Assembly: GCF_003426815.1 (NCBI RefSeq) | Contig: NZ_QKYK01000001.1 | Span: 1 to 64,000 of the forward strand | Length of the DNA stretch: 64,000 nucleotides | Source of the DNA: Desertimonas flava | GTDB lineage: Bacteria > Actinomycetota > Acidimicrobiia > Acidimicrobiales > Ilumatobacteraceae | Direction of reading: 5' to 3' | Shown: positions 1-10,447 of the stretch, in pieces | Layout: each line of letters starts with the position of its first letter | Numbering within the stretch: the first letter of the stretch is position 1 | The notes under the pieces: model-generated | Databases searched by the model: none | Told to the model about the DNA's origin: nothing | Seen by the model: only the letters and a program-made list of their open reading frames with translations | Program-made: the position numbers and the translations under genes

Positions 1-514
1 CCGGCGCCGCGGTGGTCGGCGCCGCGGTCGTGGCCGGCGGCGCCGCAGTGGTCGGTGCGGCGGTGGTCGGCGCGGCCGTCGTCACGGCCGGCGCCGGGAC
101 GGGGGCGGTGACCGTCGGGCCGCCGCTCGCAGCGGTGGTGGGTGCGCCCGATGTCGACTCCGTGGGAGTGGACGTCGGCGGCTCCGATGATCCCGTGACC
201 TGGGACGACGGTGGGGCGTCGAGGAGCTCGATGCCGGAGAGCTCGAGCCGGTTCTTACCGACGATCGTGAACGTCAAGCGGTAGCGCTGGCCCTTGCCGT
301 CGGCCGTACACGACAACGTCGTGCCCACGTCGGTCGAGGCCGGCTCGCTGCAGTCGATGTTCTCGAAGTCGACCTTGTACGCCTCGTAGACCTCGTCGCT
401 GGCGATGAACGCGGCCGCATCCGTCGGGTAGCGGCTGGCCGGGGCCGCGCACGCCGACACGATTGCCGCCATCGTGCCGAGCGAGGAGAGCCAGATGGTT
501 CGCCTGCCGTTCAT
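1..514 (-). CDS. Thr/Ala/Pro-rich lipoprotein, 3' end beyond window
   Basis: Reading the minus strand from an ATG at 514 gives an N-terminal signal peptide ending in a lipobox-like VSAC, so this is probably a lipid-anchored surface protein. A small globular part of about 75 residues follows, with two Cys (DC and SC), somewhat like DUF4333-type domains. The chain then becomes Thr/Ala/Pro-rich with repeats of the type TTAAP until the window edge, so the C-terminus is missing. The ATG overlaps the TGA of the upstream kinase gene (ATGA), indicating translational coupling and a shared role at the envelope. The function of the globular domain is not recognised. The Thr-rich tail may be a wall-spanning, possibly O-glycosylated linker (inference). 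Confidence 0.75.
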   Translation of the reverse strand, partial: MNGRRTIWLSSLGTMAAIVSACAAPASRYPTDAAAFIASDEVYEAYKVDFENIDCSEPASTDVGTTLSCTADGKGQRYRLTFTIVGKNRLELSGIELLDAPPSSQVTGSSEPPTSTPTESTSGAPTTAASGGPTVTAPVPAPAVTTAAPTTAAPTTAAPPATTAAPTTAAP

Positions 515-2367
515 GGGTACCTGATCGTCATCGTCGTGGTCGTGTTGTCGGAGAAGGCGATCGTGAGCACGTCGATCGAGCCGGACACCGGCTCGGCGTC
601 GAACGACAGGATGAAGAAGTCACCGCCGGACACGAAACGGACCGTGCCCGGTGAGTTGAAGATCCGCAGGATCGTCGGCCGCTCCGGTGGCGGCTGGGTC
701 GGCCCGGAGCCGGGCGGAGCCGGGGGCTGGACCCATTCGATCTGGTAGAGCGCGCTGCGGGCGGGCATACGCAGGGCGACGTCCATGACCTTCCACGCCG
801 TGAGCTGACCGTTCTCGCTGCCCACCGTCATGCATCCGGGCTCGCCGACCGGACATCGCGAGTGGAGGATGAGGCCGCCCGTCGGATCGGTGAGCGCGGT
901 GCACGCGCCCTCGATGCACTCGCTGAACGACGTCACCTTGCCCTCGACGTCCAGCTCGAAGTCCCGGAGCTCCACCTGGGTGCCGGATCCGACGTCGAGC
1001 CGGTAGCCGTTCTCGGTGGCCACGACCGGGCCGGACTCCTCGGCCGACGGGCCCAACAGGCGGGCCCATTCGGCGTAGAAGAACGCCGCCGAGTTGACCT
1101 GGGCGATCTCGGCGGGGTTGAACACGCGCGACTGGACGGCCAGGGCGTACCTCGACGGACCCGACGAGCCCTCGGCGACGGGCTCGCCGATCACGTCGCC
1201 GTACTGGTTCGTCGGCGCCGGTGGAGTCGTGGTGGTCGTCGTGGTCGGCGGCGTGGTGGTGGTGGTCGTGGTCGTCGTGGTGGTGGTGGTCGGCAGTTCG
1301 ACGTCGCGGCCGATGGCCACGTCGACCGGCGGGTTGCGCCACCGGTCGGACACGAACCAGCCGACGGCGGCGAGGATCAACACGGCGACGGTGAGGAAGG
1401 TGACGATGGGCCAGCGGCGCCGCGGGGTGGCGTCGGGCGGTTCGAGCGACGGCGGCGGGAGGTCGGCACCCGGTGGGAGCGGGCGGGCGTAGGCCTGGGC
1501 CGAGTCCGACACTTGTGTGCGCAGGGCCTGGACGAACTCCGTGCACGTGGCGAACCGGTCCTCGGGCCGCTTCGCCAGCCCGCGACGGAACACGTCGTTC
1601 AGTCCGGGCGGCAGGGTCGAGCGGAACGCCGTGATGTCGGGCGGGACCTTCTGCAGGTGCGCCATGGCGAGCGAGGTCTCGTCGGGTTCGTCGGCGAACG
1701 GCGTCCGCCCGCAAAGGATCTCGAACGCACTCGCCGCGAACGAGTACACGTCGGTGCGCTCGTCGATCGCCTGGCCGGAGATCTGTTCCGGTGACGCGTA
1801 CGAGAGCGTGCCGACGAACGTGCCGCTCTGCGGGCTGGGAGCGGGCGCCGCGCCGCCCGACTTGTCGGCGACCTTGGTGATCCCGAAGTCGACGAGAAAC
1901 GCCGATCGCGGCGTCTCGGTCATCTTCACCATGATGTTGGCCGGCTTGATGTCGCGGTGGACGGCGCCGTGGCGGTGGGCGAAGTCGACGGCGCCGGCCG
2001 CCTGCGCCAGGAGGTCCAAGCCCTCGATGACGGGGAGACCCTCGCCGCCGGGCTGGCGCTCGACCAGCTCGGCGAGGCTGATCCCGGCGATGAACTCGGT
2101 GACGAAGAACAGCGAGCCGTCCACCTCGCCCCACGTGTACACCGTGACGATGTGCGGGTGGCCGTCGAGGGCGGCGGCGATCTGCGCTTCGCGGACGAAC
2201 CGCTCCCGCACTCCGGGGTCGGCGGCATAGTCGTCGGTGAGCACCTTGAACGCCACGCGGCGCTGCAGGGACATGTCGGTCGCGGCGAAGACGGTGGTGG
2301 CGCGCCCGCGGTGGATCGTCTGATCCAGTCGGTAGTTGTTGACCATCTGGCCTGGCTGCAGCGTCAT
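511..2367 (-). CDS. Transmembrane Ser/Thr protein kinase (PknB-like) with extracellular sensor region
   Basis: Residues about 12-280 form a Hanks-type kinase with all key elements: invariant Lys41 in VAFK, HRDIKPAN with Asp139, and DFG at 160-162. It should therefore be catalytically active in the cytoplasm. A single transmembrane helix lies near residues 320-340. A poly-Thr linker follows, then an extracellular domain of about 200 residues that is not PASTA and that I do not recognise. ATG 2367 is preferred because it precedes the kinase fold directly; an upstream GTG would add about 16 unneeded residues. The gene is 618 codons, overlaps the lipoprotein gene downstream by 4 bp, and is divergent from the Thr-rich secreted protein at 2612. 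It probably senses an envelope signal. Confidence 0.9.
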   Translation of the reverse strand: MTLQPGQMVNNYRLDQTIHRGRATTVFAATDMSLQRRVAFKVLTDDYAADPGVRERFVREAQIAAALDGHPHIVTVYTWGEVDGSLFFVTEFIAGISLAELVERQPGGEGLPVIEGLDLLAQAAGAVDFAHRHGAVHRDIKPANIMVKMTETPRSAFLVDFGITKVADKSGGAAPAPSPQSGTFVGTLSYASPEQISGQAIDERTDVYSFAASAFEILCGRTPFADEPDETSLAMAHLQKVPPDITAFRSTLPPGLNDVFRRGLAKRPEDRFATCTEFVQALRTQVSDSAQAYARPLPPGADLPPPSLEPPDATPRRRWPIVTFLTVAVLILAAVGWFVSDRWRNPPVDVAIGRDVELPTTTTTTTTTTTTTPPTTTTTTTPPAPTNQYGDVIGEPVAEGSSGPSRYALAVQSRVFNPAEIAQVNSAAFFYAEWARLLGPSAEESGPVVATENGYRLDVGSGTQVELRDFELDVEGKVTSFSECIEGACTALTDPTGGLILHSRCPVGEPGCMTVGSENGQLTAWKVMDVALRMPARSALYQIEWVQPPAPPGSGPTQPPPERPTILRIFNSPGTVRFVSGGDFFILSFDAEPVSGSIDVLTIAFSDNTTTTMTIRYP

Positions 2368-2611
2368 GTGAGTGTCCACCACCCCACTGTCGAAGCCGGC
2401 TGCAGGCACCCACACGCCGACGTGAAAGCGCCCTGGACTCTACCGGGAGCAGGTCGCCGACCGAGTGCGCCCTCGTCGCCGCCGGCGTGCGCCGCCGGGC
2501 CGCGCCGGCACCGTGACAGGGTCGCCTGGCAACGAAGTAGCATCGCGGCGATGGTCGGTGGAATCCATCATGGACGGCCCTGACGCCGCGTGAGACCGGT
2601 GTGAGTTCGGC

Positions 2612-5125
2612 GTGAGTGCGAGGCTGATCGGCTCGACCGGGCGGTCCAGCCTGGTGGCCCGGTGCGTCGTGCTCGTCGTCGTCCTGGCCCTCGGGTTCGC
2701 CGTCGAGCGGGCGATGGACTCGCCCGACCGTGTCGGCGCCGCCGAGTTCGACGGGCGCACCTGGCTCGATCTCCCGGCCGGCGACGGCAACGGCAAGCTC
2801 GTGCTGGCCAACGGCATCTCCGGGCTGGTCGAGGCCCAGGCAGGAGACCCCGATCCCGACGCCTGGCCGGTCGGCATGCGGTTTGCCGGATCGGACCGAC
2901 GCTTCACCCTGCTGCAGGGCGACGGCGCGGTGGCGGTGCTCGGGGACGGCTCGCACGACGGTGCGCTGTTCGACGTGCCGGCCGACTCGACGAGTGTCCT
3001 CGGCGCCGCCGGCATCGTGACCGCCGGTGCCGACGGTGTCACCCTCCGGCGGCTGGTGCCGGACCGCTCGACCGGCGACATCGCCGCCGAGGTGGTGGCC
3101 GTCACCGGGGAGCCGGCCGCGTCGGCACCGGTCGTCGAGACCGACGGCGACACATGGGTCCTCGTCGGCTCCGACGCGTCGACGGCCGTGCGCATCGACA
3201 CCCGCGGCCGCGCCGCCGATCGCGTCGAGGTCGCGGCCGGTGCGGTCGGCCTCCTCGTGATCGACGGGCGGGTGCACGTGCGCCGTGCCGGCGGGATCGA
3301 TCCCGTGCGAGACGGATCGCCGCGTGGTGCCGCCGGCGTTGACGGCATCGCCCCCACCGTCGCCGACGCGACCGACGGAGCCTGGGCCACGGCATCAGGA
3401 CGCACGGTGACCGTCGAGGTCGACGGGGACGGGACGACGTTCGAGGCACTGGATCCGATCCGCTCGCTCGCCGTGTGGCACGGCGCGGTGTGGGCGGTGG
3501 CGGGTCATGTCGTCGGGCGTCTGGAAGGCGACGAGTTGCGCGTCATCGAGGGCGTCGACGGTCCCTTCGAGGACGTCTTCACCGACGGAGGGCGGCTGTG
3601 GTTCGTGTCGGCCACCGAAGCGATCGCCATCGACCGCCGGCAACAGGCGACGGTGTTCGCCCTGCAGGGCCTCGACGTGCAGTACTGCGTCGACACGTGC
3701 ACACCCGACGATCTCAACCAGCTGAGCGACGGCCGCTCCGACGCCGAGTCGGTCGACGATCCCGCCGACGGGTCCACCACGACGGTGGCCACCACGCCCG
3801 TCTCGATCCCGCAGATCACGACGACCACGCCGCCCACGACGCCGCCGCCGCCGCCACCACCACCACGGCCGCCGACCACGGCGGCACCGACGACCACGGC
3901 CACGACGCAGCCGCCGGTCACCGAGCCGGCGACGACGGCACGACCGACATCGCCACCGACCGCCGCCGCCGCTCCACGCCCCACCGAGCCGGCGCCCACG
4001 CAACCGCCGGCCACGGCACCTGCGATCACCGTCGCACCGACGACGTCGCTGCCGATCATCGCCGACACGATCGAGCCGATCGACCCCGGGCCGCCACAGA
4101 CGACCCGCCCACCCGAGACGACCCGCCCGTCCGACACCACTCGCCCACTCGACACCAGCCCGCCACCCGTCACGGACTTGCCCGGTGACGTCGACCTCGT
4201 GCTGTCGTTCGCCGACGGCGGCGGCGACACGACCGCCACCGAGGTGACGATCAACTACGGGTGGGACGGCCGGCGCCGAGACTGTGCCGGTGCGCTGGGG
4301 AACAGCGCGTGGGCCGACGTCGACGTCGCCGGCGCCGCCGACGAATGGTGGGGCGGGATGCTCGGGCGCGGCGACGTGCACTCGGCGTCGGTCGCCGTCA
4401 CCCCTGGGACATTGACCGTCACGCTCAGCGTCTGCGGGCGGCGCGCCACGATCACCCGGAACATCGTCGCCCCGCCGCAGACCCCACAGCTCACCGGGCT
4501 CCTCGTGACGCCCGAGGCAGTCGCCCCCGGTGATCCGTTCACGGCCACCGTCAACTACAGCTACGGCGACACCTGGCAGGCCACCGGTGCGTCGTGGACC
4601 GGTGGTCCGTGTGGAGCGGAGGCACCGCTGTCGGGCTCTCTCGAGGCGATGTCGTCCTCGGTCACCGTCCCGACGTCGATCGAAGGGACCTACTGCGTCA
4701 GCGTCATCGTGACGTTCCGTTCGACGAGTGGGGAGGAGCTGTCACCCGGCGACGCCGCCAGCGTCGACGTCACCGGTGCGACCACGCCCGCCACCTCGAC
4801 CAGCACCACGACGACGACACCCGGCGGATCGACGACCACGTCGTCGTCCACCACCTCGACGGTCACCACCAGCACCACGTCGACGACATCCACGACGACC
4901 TCGTCGACGACATCCACGACGTCCACCGTTCCGGGCGCGACGACCACGAGCACATCGACCACGAGCACGTCGACCACCAGCACGTCGACCACCAGCACGA
5001 CCCGTCCGCCGGGATCGACCTCGTCGACGTCCTCGACGACCTCCTCGACGTCGACGAGTTCCACCTCCACGACGACCACGACCTCGACGTCCACCTCCAC
5101 CTCCACCGTGGCCCCGCCCCGGTAG
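2612..5125 (+). CDS. Large secreted or membrane-anchored propeller/Ig-like protein with Thr-rich segments
   Basis: This 837-residue protein starts at a GTG with a hydrophobic N-terminal helix (signal or anchor). About 330 residues of short repeated beta-strand patterns follow, resembling a beta-propeller of the surface-protein type. A Thr/Pro-rich stretch (about residues 385-525) comes next, then two beta-rich Ig/FN3-like units with paired Cys, and finally an almost pure Thr/Ser tail of about 120 residues. No catalytic motif is visible. It is followed after 23 bp by a MoxR ATPase and a DUF58 gene. Many actinobacteria have this order (surface protein, MoxR, DUF58, transglutaminase-like protein, kinase), so it is probably a client or component of that envelope system (inference). 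Confidence 0.8.
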   Translation: MSARLIGSTGRSSLVARCVVLVVVLALGFAVERAMDSPDRVGAAEFDGRTWLDLPAGDGNGKLVLANGISGLVEAQAGDPDPDAWPVGMRFAGSDRRFTLLQGDGAVAVLGDGSHDGALFDVPADSTSVLGAAGIVTAGADGVTLRRLVPDRSTGDIAAEVVAVTGEPAASAPVVETDGDTWVLVGSDASTAVRIDTRGRAADRVEVAAGAVGLLVIDGRVHVRRAGGIDPVRDGSPRGAAGVDGIAPTVADATDGAWATASGRTVTVEVDGDGTTFEALDPIRSLAVWHGAVWAVAGHVVGRLEGDELRVIEGVDGPFEDVFTDGGRLWFVSATEAIAIDRRQQATVFALQGLDVQYCVDTCTPDDLNQLSDGRSDAESVDDPADGSTTTVATTPVSIPQITTTTPPTTPPPPPPPPRPPTTAAPTTTATTQPPVTEPATTARPTSPPTAAAAPRPTEPAPTQPPATAPAITVAPTTSLPIIADTIEPIDPGPPQTTRPPETTRPSDTTRPLDTSPPPVTDLPGDVDLVLSFADGGGDTTATEVTINYGWDGRRRDCAGALGNSAWADVDVAGAADEWWGGMLGRGDVHSASVAVTPGTLTVTLSVCGRRATITRNIVAPPQTPQLTGLLVTPEAVAPGDPFTATVNYSYGDTWQATGASWTGGPCGAEAPLSGSLEAMSSSVTVPTSIEGTYCVSVIVTFRSTSGEELSPGDAASVDVTGATTPATSTSTTTTTPGGSTTTSSSTTSTVTTSTTSTTSTTTSSTTSTTSTVPGATTTSTSTTSTSTTSTSTTSTTRPPGSTSSTSSTTSSTSTSSTSTTTTTSTSTSTSTVAPPR

Positions 5126-5148
5126 CCGACCCACACCCGAGGCGCCCG

Positions 5149-6216
5149 ATGCCCGACGATCACACCACGACCTTCGATCCCGGGGCCACCCGCCTGACCG
5201 GCGCCCTGGCCGCGTCCGGCGGGCGATCGCGGGTCATCCATGGCGCCATCACGCTGTCCGACGCCGACGTCACGTGGTTCGGTGAGACGTTCCGGCGCCT
5301 GCTCACCAACGTCGCTCGGCGCGTGCAGGGCAAGGACGACCAGATCGGCTATGCGCTCGTCGCCCTCGTCTCCGAGGGCCACCTGCTGCTCGAGGACGTG
5401 CCCGGCGTCGGCAAGACCAGCCTCGCCCGGTCGATCGCCGAGTCGGTCTCGGGCACGTGGAACCGCGTGCAGTTCACCCCCGACCTCCTGCCGTCGGACA
5501 TCACGGGAGTGTCGATCTTCAACCAGGCGAGCCGCGACTTCGAGTTCCGGCCCGGTCCGATCTTCTCCAACGTCGTCATCGGTGACGAGATCAACCGCAC
5601 CTCACCGAAGACGCAGTCGGCCCTGCTCGAGGTGATGGAGGAACGCAGCGTCACCGTCGACGGCGTCACCCACGCCGTCCCGCGGCCGTTCGTCGTGGTC
5701 GCCACCCAGAACCCCGTCGACATGGACGCCGGCACGTACGCGTTGCCCGAAGCCCAGCTCGATCGCTTCCTGCTCAAGATGGCCATGGGCTATCCCGACG
5801 CCGTCGCCGAGGCGGCGATCGTCAGCGGTCGCCACGGGGGTCCGCCCGGACCGCTCGACGCCGTCGTCGGTCTCGCCGACGTCGACCGCATGATCCGAAT
5901 CAGCTCGCTCGTGCGCACCGACCCGCAGGTGGTGCAGTACGTCGTGGCGCTCGTCCAGGCCACCCGGCAGAACGCCGACGTGCGCCTCGGCGCCAGTCCA
6001 CGAGGGACCATCGGGTTGCTGCGCGCGGCGCAGACCCTCGCCGCGGCCGAAGGTCGAGCATTCGTGACCGCCGACGACATCAAGCGCCTCGCCGTTCCCG
6101 TCCTGTCCCACCGGCTCGTCATCGCCCCCAACGCCCAGCTCCGTGGCATCACCGCCGAGCGGGTGATCGTCGATCTCCTCACCCGGCTCGCCGTGCCCGG
6201 TGGCGTGGTCGACTGA
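5149..6216 (+). CDS. MoxR-family AAA+ ATPase
   Basis: This 355-residue ATPase has a Walker A (GVGKTS, about residues 86-91), a Walker B followed by the MoxR signature (GDEINRTSPKTQ), and the typical ATQNP sensor-1 segment. MoxR proteins are chaperone-like ATPases that assist maturation of partner complexes, often with DUF58 or VWA proteins. The start is the ATG at 5149, 23 bp after the preceding stop; reading frames extending further upstream only shadow the previous gene. A DUF58 gene follows at 6246, matching the standard MoxR-DUF58 pairing. Confidence 0.93.
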   Translation: MPDDHTTTFDPGATRLTGALAASGGRSRVIHGAITLSDADVTWFGETFRRLLTNVARRVQGKDDQIGYALVALVSEGHLLLEDVPGVGKTSLARSIAESVSGTWNRVQFTPDLLPSDITGVSIFNQASRDFEFRPGPIFSNVVIGDEINRTSPKTQSALLEVMEERSVTVDGVTHAVPRPFVVVATQNPVDMDAGTYALPEAQLDRFLLKMAMGYPDAVAEAAIVSGRHGGPPGPLDAVVGLADVDRMIRISSLVRTDPQVVQYVVALVQATRQNADVRLGASPRGTIGLLRAAQTLAAAEGRAFVTADDIKRLAVPVLSHRLVIAPNAQLRGITAERVIVDLLTRLAVPGGVVD

Positions 6217-6245: not shown

Positions 6246-7373
6246 ATGCGACTCACCACCCTTGGCCGAGGATTCCTCGGTGGTGGGCTCGTGCTCGTTG
6301 CGGCCGGAGCTCTGCTCGGCGTCCCGGTCGTGGTGACCGTCGGCGTGTTCATGCTCGCCCTCGTCGGGGGTGCGGCGGTCCTCGTCGCCGAGGTACCCGA
6401 CGTCAGCGTGGCGCGCGCCGCCATCCCCACCGAAGTGGACCGCGGTGGCCCGGCCGAGATCCGCCTGCGATTCCGTTCGGTGTCCACCCGACGGCCTCGG
6501 CCGCTCACCGTCATCGAGACGGTCGACGGCCAACAGCGCCTGGCCACCATCGGGCCGATCCCCGCGCAGGGGACGGACGAGCTCGCTTACGCGGTGCCCA
6601 CCGGTCGCCGCGGGGTCGTCAGGGCCGGCCCGCTCGTCGTGCGCCGCTCCGACCCCTTCGGGCTGGTGACCGCCGACCGGCGATTCACCAGCACGTGCAC
6701 CGTCAGCGTGCGGCCGCGCCACTACGCGCTGCGCATGTTGCCGTCGGGGCGCCAGCGCGACCTCGAGGGCCCGACCCGCGAGCGCTCCGAAGGCACGGCG
6801 AGCTTCCACCAGCTGCGCGAGTACGCACCCGGTGACGACCTGCGTCGGGTCCACTGGCGCAGCACGGCGCGGACGGGCCAGCTGCTCGTCAAGGAGATGA
6901 TCGACACGACCCGGCCCGAACTGCTCGTCGTGCTCGACAACCGCACATCGGCGATCTCGGCCGACGACTTCGAGCACGCCGTCGACATCGCCGCGTCGAT
7001 CGTCCGCGCCGCGGAGAACGAAGACTTCCCGACGACGCTGATGTTCGCCGACGGGGCGGGTGACATCGATCTCGACGGCCAACCCATCCCGGCGGTCGAT
7101 CGGCTCACGTCGGTGCGCCTGGGTGACGCCGACTCGCTCGCCCAGCTCGCCGACGTCATCGTCTCGCGCGGGCGCAGCCTGGTGTTCGTCACCGGCGAAC
7201 CGTCAGGCACCGACCTGATGACGCTCGCCAAGCTGGCCGTCGGCTTCTCGCCGGCGTATCTCGTCTCCGTCGTCGCCGAGCGGCATGACCCGGTCGTCGC
7301 CCCACGTGGGATGCGGGCCATCGCGTGTGCCGACCCGGAGGAGTTCGTGCACCTCTGGACGTCGCTGTCGTGA
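6246..7373 (+). CDS. DUF58 domain membrane protein
   Basis: This is a 375-residue protein. Two N-terminal hydrophobic segments (about residues 8-50) are followed by a beta-rich domain and the DUF58 hallmark YAPGDDLRRVHWRSTAR near residue 195. The C-terminal half looks VWA-like (LLVVLDNRTS). DUF58 proteins occur almost always beside MoxR ATPases and transglutaminase-like membrane proteins, as here. The biochemical role is not established for this family; an envelope assembly function is inferred from context. The stop codon overlaps the GTG of the next gene by 4 bp (GTGA), so the two are probably co-translated. Confidence 0.92.
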   Translation: MRLTTLGRGFLGGGLVLVAAGALLGVPVVVTVGVFMLALVGGAAVLVAEVPDVSVARAAIPTEVDRGGPAEIRLRFRSVSTRRPRPLTVIETVDGQQRLATIGPIPAQGTDELAYAVPTGRRGVVRAGPLVVRRSDPFGLVTADRRFTSTCTVSVRPRHYALRMLPSGRQRDLEGPTRERSEGTASFHQLREYAPGDDLRRVHWRSTARTGQLLVKEMIDTTRPELLVVLDNRTSAISADDFEHAVDIAASIVRAAENEDFPTTLMFADGAGDIDLDGQPIPAVDRLTSVRLGDADSLAQLADVIVSRGRSLVFVTGEPSGTDLMTLAKLAVGFSPAYLVSVVAERHDPVVAPRGMRAIACADPEEFVHLWTSLS

Positions 7374-10300
7374 CAGCGGTCCACAGGCGGGAACGGCGGC
7401 GCCGTCGCGGCGCGAGCGTCGACGAGCCGTCCACTGTGCGTCGTCCGCTCCACCGAGCAGCCGGCCCCGTGCTGCTCGCGGCGTGTAGCGGGCTCGCGCT
7501 GTGGCGGGCCTTCGTCCCCGGCGACCTGGTGCTCGGCCTGAGCACCGGCGTGCTGGCGGGCACGCTCGCCGGGTGGCTCGCCGCCCGGCCGTTCGCCGGT
7601 GCGGTCGGTGGCTCGGCGCGGGTCGTCGTGGCCCTCACCGCGCTCGCTGCCGGTCTCGTCGTCGTCACCGGCGACGTGCGGTCACTGGCGGACGTGCCGA
7701 CACAGTTCGCGACGTTCCTCAGCATCGGGCTCCCCGCCGACGGGCTCGAGGACCTGGCGGTCGTTCCCTACGTGGTGACGTCGACGACCGTCGCCCTCGC
7801 CGCCTGGGCGGCGCTGGGCGCGCGATTGCTGACCGCGGTACTCGTCGCCGGCGCCGGTCTCCTCGCCGCGTCGCTCCTCGCCGGTCCCGCCGGCGTGCCG
7901 CCCGCCGTCGCCGGAGCGTTCTGCGTCGTGCTCGCCGCCTGCTTGATGGGCGTGTCCCGGGTCGACTACTCCGAGCTCGAGCGACTCACCGGTCCGTCGA
8001 CGGCCAGTCGCCGCAGCATCCAGTGGTGGCGGCCCGCCGTGGTCGCGCTCCCCGCGGCCGCGGTGGCTGCGGCAGCACTGGTGATCCCCACTCCGGAGAC
8101 CTTCGACGTACGCCGCTTCGTCGCCAGCGATCTCGTCGTGGCGGCCGACGAGAACCCGCTTGCCGTCGCCGCCCGCCTCGTCGCCGACCCGCCTCGTGAC
8201 GCCGGCGATCCGGACGTGCGGGTGAGCGTCGATGGCCCGAGTCCCGGCCGGATGCGCCTCGCCGTGCTCGACGACTACGCGCCGGAGGGTTGGCATCAGC
8301 TGGCCGAGTACGCCCTGACCGGCACCCACCTCGCCGCCAGTGCCGTGGGCGATTCCCATCGGGAGTCGTCGCGGGAGACGACACGTGTCGAGGTCACCGA
8401 TCTCAACGGCCGCTCGGGACTCGTGGCCCTTCCGACGGCGGGCACGCCGCTGGAGGTCGTCGATGCCACCGGGCTCCGGTACGCCCCGGACGCCGGACTG
8501 CTCCTGCCGGTCGGTGACGGCCCGCCCGGCGACGTCGTCTATCTCGCCGCGCCCGACGAGACCCGTCCCGAGGGTCCTGGACGGCCACCGTCGGGACTCC
8601 CTCGGGCGATCGCCACATGTCCATCATCGGAACTGATCCGTGGGATCGCCCAACAGTTGACCGCCGACGTCGACGATCCGCTTCGACGGCTCGCCGCGAT
8701 CGAGGTGTGGCTCAAGTACCAGCGTCTCTACGTGGCCGAAGGTTCCGGCGGTCAGACCCTGGCGAGCGTCGAGCGGTTCCTCGGCCAGGACTTCGCGGTG
8801 GGCAACCTCGAGGTGTTCGTCACCGCGTATGCGTTGCTCGCCCGCTGCGCCGGGGTGCCGGTGCGCGTCGTGGTCGGCTATCCGTCGCCACCGGGCGACG
8901 GCGACACCGTGTTCGCCGCCGCCGACGTCACGGCGTGGGTCGAGACACCGATCGCCGGCGTGGGCTGGATCCCCGTCGATCCCGTGCCGACGCCGATCGA
9001 GCAGGATCGCATCCGCGAGCAGATCGCCGCGCGACCGGACCCAGACCCCGACGAGGTCCCCCCGGAGGCGACCACGACGACGGTGCCGTTGCAGGCGCCG
9101 CGCCCGCCGGAGTCGAGCGACTGGGGCCGGACCGCACTGCTGGTCCTGGTCGTCACCCTCGGGATCGTCGCGGCCGTCGCGACGTGGTCGTTCGCGATCC
9201 GCCGGCGAACGATCGCCCGCCGCTCGCGCGCCGCCGATCCGGCCCTCGCTGCCCTCCTCGCCTGGACGACGCTGCTCGAGCGTTTTCACGACAACCGCCA
9301 GGGCATCGGTGCCCACCTGACCGCCAGTGAGGCCGCCCGCTCGACGGCCGGGCGCGTGCCGGCGCCGGTGACCCGGATGTTGGGCGAGTTGGCCACCGTG
9401 GTCGATCGGGCCCGCTTCGACGGGGACCGCGCCACCGACGAGGACGCGGCACTGGCCTGGGCGTTGACCGACGCCTCGCTGGCCCGGCTCCCCGAGGGTT
9501 GGCTCGTGTGGTCGGCGCCGATGCGCAACCCGCGGCGCGCGCTCGCCCGCCTGCGGCTCACCAAGCGTGTGCCGCGTCGCCACCGTCGGTGGAACGGGGA
9601 GGTGCCGGCGAGCGCCGCGGTGCTCGAGACGGGCGACCGGCCCGAGATCGACGGGTACGAGGTCGTCGCCCGCACCGGTGTCGGATCGACGGCTGCCGTG
9701 TACCGGGCGACAGAGGCCAGCAGCGGGCGGGCGGTCGCCGTCAAGGTCTTCCACGTCGATCCGGCCGGCCGTGGGTTCGACCAGCAGCGGTTCCTGTGGG
9801 AGGCGCGGGTGGCCGAGACCGTCTCGGGCCAGCCCAACCTGCCCGAGGTGCTCCGGTCGGGCTTCACGATCGACGGCCGCCCCTACGTCGTGACGAAGTT
9901 CTACGAGCGGGGCACGCTTGCCCGGCGGGTGCGGATCAGCGGTGCGCTGACGGTGCCGCAGGTGAATGCCGCCGCCCGCCAGCTCGCCCAGGCGCTGCAC
10001 ACGCTTCACCAGAGCGGCGTGCTGCACGGCGACGTCCGGCCCGAGAACGTCTTCATCGACGACGACGACTCGCTCGTGCTCGGTGACCTGGGCGCCGGAT
10101 GGCTGCGCGCTGCGGGCGGACCGGCGACGATGCTGACGCCGGCCTACGCCGCGCCGGAGGTGTGGCTGGGTCACGCACCGACCGTGCGGTCCGACATCTA
10201 CTCGCTCGGGTTGACGTTGATGTTCGCGGCGACGGGTCGGCCGCCCTTCCCGGGGACGACGCCGTCGGTCGACGACGTGACCGCCGCCTTCGAGTCGGAC

Positions 10301-10447
10301 GTCGCCGTTCCCCTCCTCGAGATCGATCCGCGGCGCCGACCGCGGTCGGCGGCCGACGTCGCCGAGCGGTTCGGCGCCGTGACCACCCGCCATCGCGTCG
10401 ACGCCGGGTTCACCCTCCCGCCGCCGTCGTGGACCATCCGATCGTGA
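7370..10447 (+). CDS. Fusion of polytopic transglutaminase-like (TgpA-type) protein and Ser/Thr kinase domain
   Basis: GTG 7370 overlaps the DUF58 stop (GTGA), giving 1025 residues. Seven or so N-terminal helices (to about residue 245) lead to an extracytoplasmic region holding a transglutaminase-like core (about 430-535). A further helix lies near 587-607, then a cytoplasmic part with a protein kinase domain (about 762-1015). In the transglutaminase core the expected catalytic Cys is Leu480 and the His position (usually HAW) is Thr521, while the Asp of WIPVDP remains, so the core is probably non-catalytic. The kinase keeps VAVK (Lys792), the catalytic-loop Asp888 (HGDVRPEN in place of HRDxKxxN) and Asp906 (DLG), so it may be active. 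The arrangement looks like a receptor in which a dead enzyme fold senses ligand (inference). Confidence 0.9.
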   Translation: MTAVHRRERRRRRGASVDEPSTVRRPLHRAAGPVLLAACSGLALWRAFVPGDLVLGLSTGVLAGTLAGWLAARPFAGAVGGSARVVVALTALAAGLVVVTGDVRSLADVPTQFATFLSIGLPADGLEDLAVVPYVVTSTTVALAAWAALGARLLTAVLVAGAGLLAASLLAGPAGVPPAVAGAFCVVLAACLMGVSRVDYSELERLTGPSTASRRSIQWWRPAVVALPAAAVAAAALVIPTPETFDVRRFVASDLVVAADENPLAVAARLVADPPRDAGDPDVRVSVDGPSPGRMRLAVLDDYAPEGWHQLAEYALTGTHLAASAVGDSHRESSRETTRVEVTDLNGRSGLVALPTAGTPLEVVDATGLRYAPDAGLLLPVGDGPPGDVVYLAAPDETRPEGPGRPPSGLPRAIATCPSSELIRGIAQQLTADVDDPLRRLAAIEVWLKYQRLYVAEGSGGQTLASVERFLGQDFAVGNLEVFVTAYALLARCAGVPVRVVVGYPSPPGDGDTVFAAADVTAWVETPIAGVGWIPVDPVPTPIEQDRIREQIAARPDPDPDEVPPEATTTTVPLQAPRPPESSDWGRTALLVLVVTLGIVAAVATWSFAIRRRTIARRSRAADPALAALLAWTTLLERFHDNRQGIGAHLTASEAARSTAGRVPAPVTRMLGELATVVDRARFDGDRATDEDAALAWALTDASLARLPEGWLVWSAPMRNPRRALARLRLTKRVPRRHRRWNGEVPASAAVLETGDRPEIDGYEVVARTGVGSTAAVYRATEASSGRAVAVKVFHVDPAGRGFDQQRFLWEARVAETVSGQPNLPEVLRSGFTIDGRPYVVTKFYERGTLARRVRISGALTVPQVNAAARQLAQALHTLHQSGVLHGDVRPENVFIDDDDSLVLGDLGAGWLRAAGGPATMLTPAYAAPEVWLGHAPTVRSDIYSLGLTLMFAATGRPPFPGTTPSVDDVTAAFESDVAVPLLEIDPRRRPRSAADVAERFGAVTTRHRVDAGFTLPPPSWTIRS

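Follow-up and report, generated by a model that had tools for sequence, protein, structure and literature searches.

A TgpA-like domain lacking the catalytic Cys and His is fused to a Hanks-type kinase in a MoxR-DUF58 gene cluster of Desertimonas flava

Within a stretch of 64,000 nucleotides of the Desertimonas flava genome (the window), one gene on the forward strand (7370..10447) encodes a membrane protein of 1,025 residues in which a TgpA-like transglutaminase domain without catalytic Cys and His is fused to a Ser/Thr kinase domain. Given that the surrounding gene set is that of the bifidobacterial PFNA operon, with tgm and kinase being one protein in the window, we consider it reasonably probable that the product is a pseudo-transglutaminase receptor kinase, i.e., tgm and its partner kinase in fused form, acting on the MoxR-DUF58 machine. 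Inactive transglutaminase membrane proteins and PknB-type receptor kinases are already known. The literature searched, of incomplete coverage, yielded no account of a kinase fused or linked to an inactive TgpA, none of the PFNA-type "transglutaminases" as pseudoenzymes, and no experimental work on such proteins.

The gene starts with a GTG at 7370, overlapping the stop codon of the DUF58 gene (GTGA, 7370-7373), and its frame is stop-free up to 10447. The third-position G+C stays between 0.78 and 0.95 over the full gene, which excludes a frame change at the transglutaminase-kinase junction. The earlier note had raised a frame error at this junction as a possible flaw, and none was found: besides the constant G+C, the same fusion is present in two independent genomes. 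That two genes were joined by a mistake of assembly or frame is extremely improbable, and was ruled out by the orthologs. Pfam assigned two domains to the protein, Transglut_core (PF01841, E 1e-14) and Pkinase (PF00069, E 5e-30). All parts lying on the forward strand, the order begins with a TgpA_N-like N-terminal membrane region of about six hydrophobic helices according to hydropathy (residues 28-240, 7451..8089), followed by an outer (extracytoplasmic) domain which, by its AF2 model and fold match, resembles the periplasmic domain of TgpA (residues 241-585, 8090..9124) and which includes the transglutaminase core (residues 421-545, 8630..9004; PF01841 and alignment to PDB 6g49). A transmembrane helix, again read from hydropathy (residues 584-611, 9119..9202), a DUF4129-like cytoplasmic segment assigned on position and conservation (residues 613-720, 9206..9529), and the Hanks-type kinase domain (residues 764-1004, 9659..10381) complete the protein. 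This membrane topology is a predicted one. Neither TgpA_N nor DUF4129 was matched by Pfam in the window protein; TgpA_N gave a weak match in the ortholog L319 (E 0.008), and DUF4129 a match under the cut-off in the homolog L211 (E 3e-4).

The active relatives carry GYCEQFA...HAW, and in the solved TgpA of Pseudomonas aeruginosa (6g49) GFC and DAHAW align to the sites which, in the fusion protein, are occupied by Leu480 (8807..8809, +) instead of the Cys and by Thr521 (8930..8932, +) instead of the His. The loss of both residues, claimed earlier from the window alone, is therefore confirmed against active relatives and a solved structure, and it is shared by the three orthologs (L/M/L and T/T/T, respectively), leaving D537 as the only retained position of the Cys-His-Asp triad. 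C417 and C493 are the ectodomain's only cysteines and are unchanged across the three orthologs; none of its histidines is invariant among them, so that a replacement Cys/His pair is unavailable. The idea of such an alternative pair in the outer domain, which the earlier note had set against its own reading, was consequently rejected on the three-ortholog alignment, where no usable Cys and His turned up elsewhere in the core. An enzyme using another nucleophile could be defended by the retained D537 and the invariant C493; however, besides the missing invariant His, C493 lies 13 residues past position 480, at which a helix begins in the model, and stands at the opposite end of that helix, and we regard this explanation as highly improbable. 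More simply, C493 would be the disulfide partner of the equally invariant C417. The AF2 model of the outer domain (20 sequences, residues 241-551) had a mean pLDDT of 60, with about 67-94 over the core, and its best solved matches were 6g4h and 6g49, both the TgpA periplasmic domain (Foldseek E 8e-9; VIA-align Z 13.9, the next match reaching 10.2). A single-sequence AF2 model of the entire protein, with a mean pLDDT of 39, was uninformative.

On the cytoplasmic side, the kinase keeps the residues expected of the Hanks type, namely the VAIK Lys (K792), the alphaC Glu (E811), D888, N893, and D906, all invariant in the three orthologs. Its catalytic loop, HGDVRPEN (H886 to N893, with DLG at 906-908), had been described as unusual, and this holds only in part: the RD-type Arg ahead of the catalytic Asp is absent (HGD), while the catalytic Asp888 and Asn893 are retained. 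An RD-type Arg is not universal in Hanks-type kinases. The Lys to Arg exchange in the loop belongs to the window protein, and since both orthologs have HGD[VI]KPEN and DLG, only the change of the HRD Arg to Gly is a fixed feature. The closest solved relative is PknB (E 5e-21); no PASTA repeats were matched in the fusion protein, with the NCBIfam PASTA-kinase model scoring 102 versus a cut-off of 450. As judged from its sequence, the fused kinase is probably catalytically active.

The gene overlapping the start of the fusion encodes a DUF58 protein (6246..7373, +; PF01882) and is preceded by one for a MoxR-type AAA+ ATPase (5149..6216, +; proposed start ATG 5149; AAA_3 E 6e-60 and AAA_lid_2). 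Upstream of MoxR lies the gene of a Thr/Pro-rich surface protein with an N-terminal hydrophobic anchor (2612..5125, +), for which no Pfam match was obtained, FN3 included. The linkage of these genes was read from overlap and spacing. The Ser/Thr kinase of the cluster is the one fused to TGM; a second, canonical transmembrane one with HRDIKPAN and DFG (511..2415, -) is encoded divergently from the surface-protein gene. The latter is possibly a partner of the cluster; no counterpart of it was detected beside the orthologous clusters of L318 and L319. At a different MoxR-DUF58 locus (L137, G000:C55), the same genome also encodes a TgpA that retains both Cys and His.

A family-wide search recovered orthologs in two other genera, L318 with 44% and L319 with 43% identity, so that the same fusion, which the earlier note had proposed to seek in other genomes, does recur, with the same Cys/His losses and in the same operon. 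Both have an inactive core (GNMEAF and GNLEMF, respectively; ITAW) fused to the same type of kinase, and both lie behind MoxR and DUF58 with the surface protein upstream (E 2e-78 and 1.5e-76), the MoxR-DUF58-TGM order and the position of the fusion gene behind MoxR and the Thr-rich surface protein thus being common to the window and the orthologous clusters. The stretches fetched around these clusters contained no second kinase domain. Between the orthologs, identity amounts to 57-62% in the dead core and 54-56% in the kinase, versus 33% in the membrane region and 22-40% in the linkers; the dead core is, along with the kinase, the best conserved part, and so has been kept for some purpose. The tree unites the three genera's fusion proteins with a support of 99; L089/L211, a fourth fusion protein, which belongs to another family, joins them at 79. 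In L211, the kinase fused to the inactive TgpA (2705-5791, -) is a pseudokinase with HGAIEPDN and GPV; the gene of an intact kinase (1019-2689, +) adjoins the fusion in convergent orientation.

The association of inactive TgpA with kinases was then considered across the order, for which 100 TgpA-like loci, drawn from the window and from the order, were sorted according to what stands at the Cys and His sites: 44 keep both, 54 are without both, and 2 are without the Cys only. The stretches searched for kinase domains measured at most 13 kb, and a downstream association was defined as one within 3.5 kb. Such a kinase domain was present in 20/56 inactive versus 0/44 active loci (Fisher p 1.6e-6, a value made too small by the kinship among the loci), and after dropping truncated loci in 20/48 versus 0/39. 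Given that the loci were picked by the transglutaminase region alone, the choice is unbiased by the kinase. The comparison with versions keeping Cys and His, suggested earlier, therefore places the kinase neighbours on the inactive side only, within this sample. The 20 kinases are convergent, on the same strand, or fused, and six of the same-strand ones start about 650-700 bases behind the core; for the other 36 of the 56 inactive loci, no kinase was seen in the stretch fetched. MoxR and DUF58 accompany TgpA in 51-54 of 56 inactive and 43-44 of 44 active loci, which gives this machine a wider distribution than its link with kinases. Some of the kinases beside inactive TgpA (L069, L073, L142, L143, L149) have lost catalytic residues and are pseudokinases, with, for example, HQN for HRD and GFG for DFG; taken with L211, these losses in tandem kinases mean that in some cases the kinase fold may have just a regulatory role. 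In most of the loci L213-L220, DUF58 and a TgpA with intact Cys/His share one open frame behind MoxR.

Inactive and active TgpA are split by one branch, with an SH-aLRT of 96 within the order and 98 when 149 sequences from across the Actinomycetota are considered. The loss of Cys and His is, in these sequences, a fixed trait of a large group and not a scattered event, and a single loss is favoured, not proven, since a shared loosened constraint could pull the inactive rows together. A scan of named genomes with the Actinomycetes-type inactive core retrieved 80 loci, mostly from Arthrobacter, Pseudarthrobacter, Paenarthrobacter, Sinomonas, Microbacterium, Herbiconiux, and Cryobacterium; being closely related, the 80 represent only a few events. 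In these Micrococcales-type loci the Cys is replaced by Asp in 80/80 cases (75 by pattern, 5 by eye) and the His is kept; a kinase with HRD[IV]KP[AS]N follows downstream on the same strand in 75/80, four of the five kinase-less loci being contig ends. One Pseudarthrobacter locus with an inactive core (L254) is unlike its kin in that MoxR, DUF58, and the kinase were not detected in 16 kb, gaps that possibly reflect assembly errors or frameshifts. In Arthrobacter oryzae, a second inactive TgpA copy is found (L271:8001-9186), with a kinase domain about 0.8 kb behind the core. The gene order in Arthrobacter globiformis is Big_9/FN3 surface protein, MoxR, DUF58, inactive TGM, RDD/FHA-like, PP2C, FHA-like, and kinase, with both FHA matches slightly under the Pfam cut-off.

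This set is that of the bifidobacterial PFNA operon, which consists of pkb2, fn3, aaa-atp, duf58, and tgm, often with prpC and fha (PMC6803598, PMC8430577); the likeness extends in A. globiformis to the Big_9/FN3 protein, FHA, PP2C, and kinase. In the window, too, a cluster with a Ser/Thr kinase has its surface protein, MoxR, DUF58, and membrane transglutaminase-like protein arranged in this order, but its tgm product is fused to a kinase and is without Cys and His, its surface protein is without an FN3 match, and neither PP2C nor FHA was seen. The MoxR ATPase encoded by the corresponding operon in Bifidobacterium is a substrate of Pkb2 (PMC8430577), and Tgm is regarded as an enzyme, "presumably a cysteine protease" (PMC6803598, PMC8430577); our search for Bifidobacterium-like genomes gave only intact-Cys/His cores or weak matches, none assignable to Bifidobacterium. 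TgpA of P. aeruginosa, with its full Cys-His-Asp triad and measured transglutaminase activity (PMC3507681; PDB 6g49, 6g4h), shares the membrane helices and the outer-domain fold that follows them, whereas the fusion protein lacks the Cys and His and has a kinase added. An inactive transglutaminase domain on a membrane protein is already known from RloB (PMC12239564), where it is likewise placed outside the membrane on a multi-helix protein; RloB, however, is largely proteobacterial, has protease and ATP-grasp genes as operon neighbours, and has no kinase, and the RloB-type Pfam family was not among the Pfam matches of the fusion protein at E up to 1. As in PknB-type receptor kinases, a membrane-anchored Hanks kinase is combined with an outer domain, here a dead transglutaminase on the N-terminal side and not C-terminal PASTA repeats.

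In the reading that we favour, the protein would unite two gene products, tgm and kinase, which related PFNA-type clusters encode as neighbours. The outside part of a receptor would consist of the N-terminal helices together with the TgpA-type outer domain, and this domain, its Cys and His lost, would serve binding rather than catalysis, the ligand perhaps being a peptide, material of the cell wall, or the surface protein whose gene lies upstream. The membrane helix and the DUF4129-like segment would relay the state of the outer domain to the PknB-type kinase inside, which would probably phosphorylate operon partners, the MoxR ATPase foremost. The suggestion, made in the earlier note, that a dead enzyme became a sensor gains from the group-wide Cys/His loss, the conserved core, the fusion in three genera, and the kinase company of inactive TgpA; that the fusion protein senses is what we infer from these sequence patterns.

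This reading has two main rivals. The dead TgpA could be a scaffold, a structural part of a MoxR-DUF58 membrane machine maturing or exporting the surface protein, with the kinase merely tuning the machine from inside and no external ligand being sensed. The presence of MoxR and DUF58 with active and inactive TgpA in nearly all loci is consistent with this, as is the DUF58-active TgpA frame seen in a separate group. A general scaffold role, however, does not predict a kinase association confined, in the sample, to the inactive branch, and some separate partner kinases carry transmembrane, FN3-like ectodomains of their own; we thus consider a scaffold unlikely, albeit a serious contender. Somewhat less likely still is a fused kinase that is weak or dead and docks cluster proteins, the working kinase being the one at 511-2415 or another. 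The lost HRD Arg, the Lys to Arg exchange in the window protein, and the L211 arrangement of dead TgpA, pseudokinase, and adjoining intact kinase gene point in this direction, but the five catalytic residues listed above are invariant in the three orthologs, near whose clusters no second kinase domain was found in the stretches fetched.

The MoxR-DUF58-transglutaminase set is common and its role obscure, DUF58 still being a domain of unknown function, and the fusion links the membrane "transglutaminase" of this set to a kinase. The split between inactive and active forms tells receptor candidates from enzyme candidates. It also cautions that, in much of the phylum, genes of PFNA-type clusters may be wrongly annotated as transglutaminases. 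We tentatively propose an Actinomycetota-wide system in which the old, dead TgpA branch would sense for a Ser/Thr kinase controlling a cell-surface MoxR-DUF58 machine, the PFNA "transglutaminase" being a pseudoenzyme receptor. If this is true, the fusion in the window would be a direct sign of TgpA-kinase coupling.
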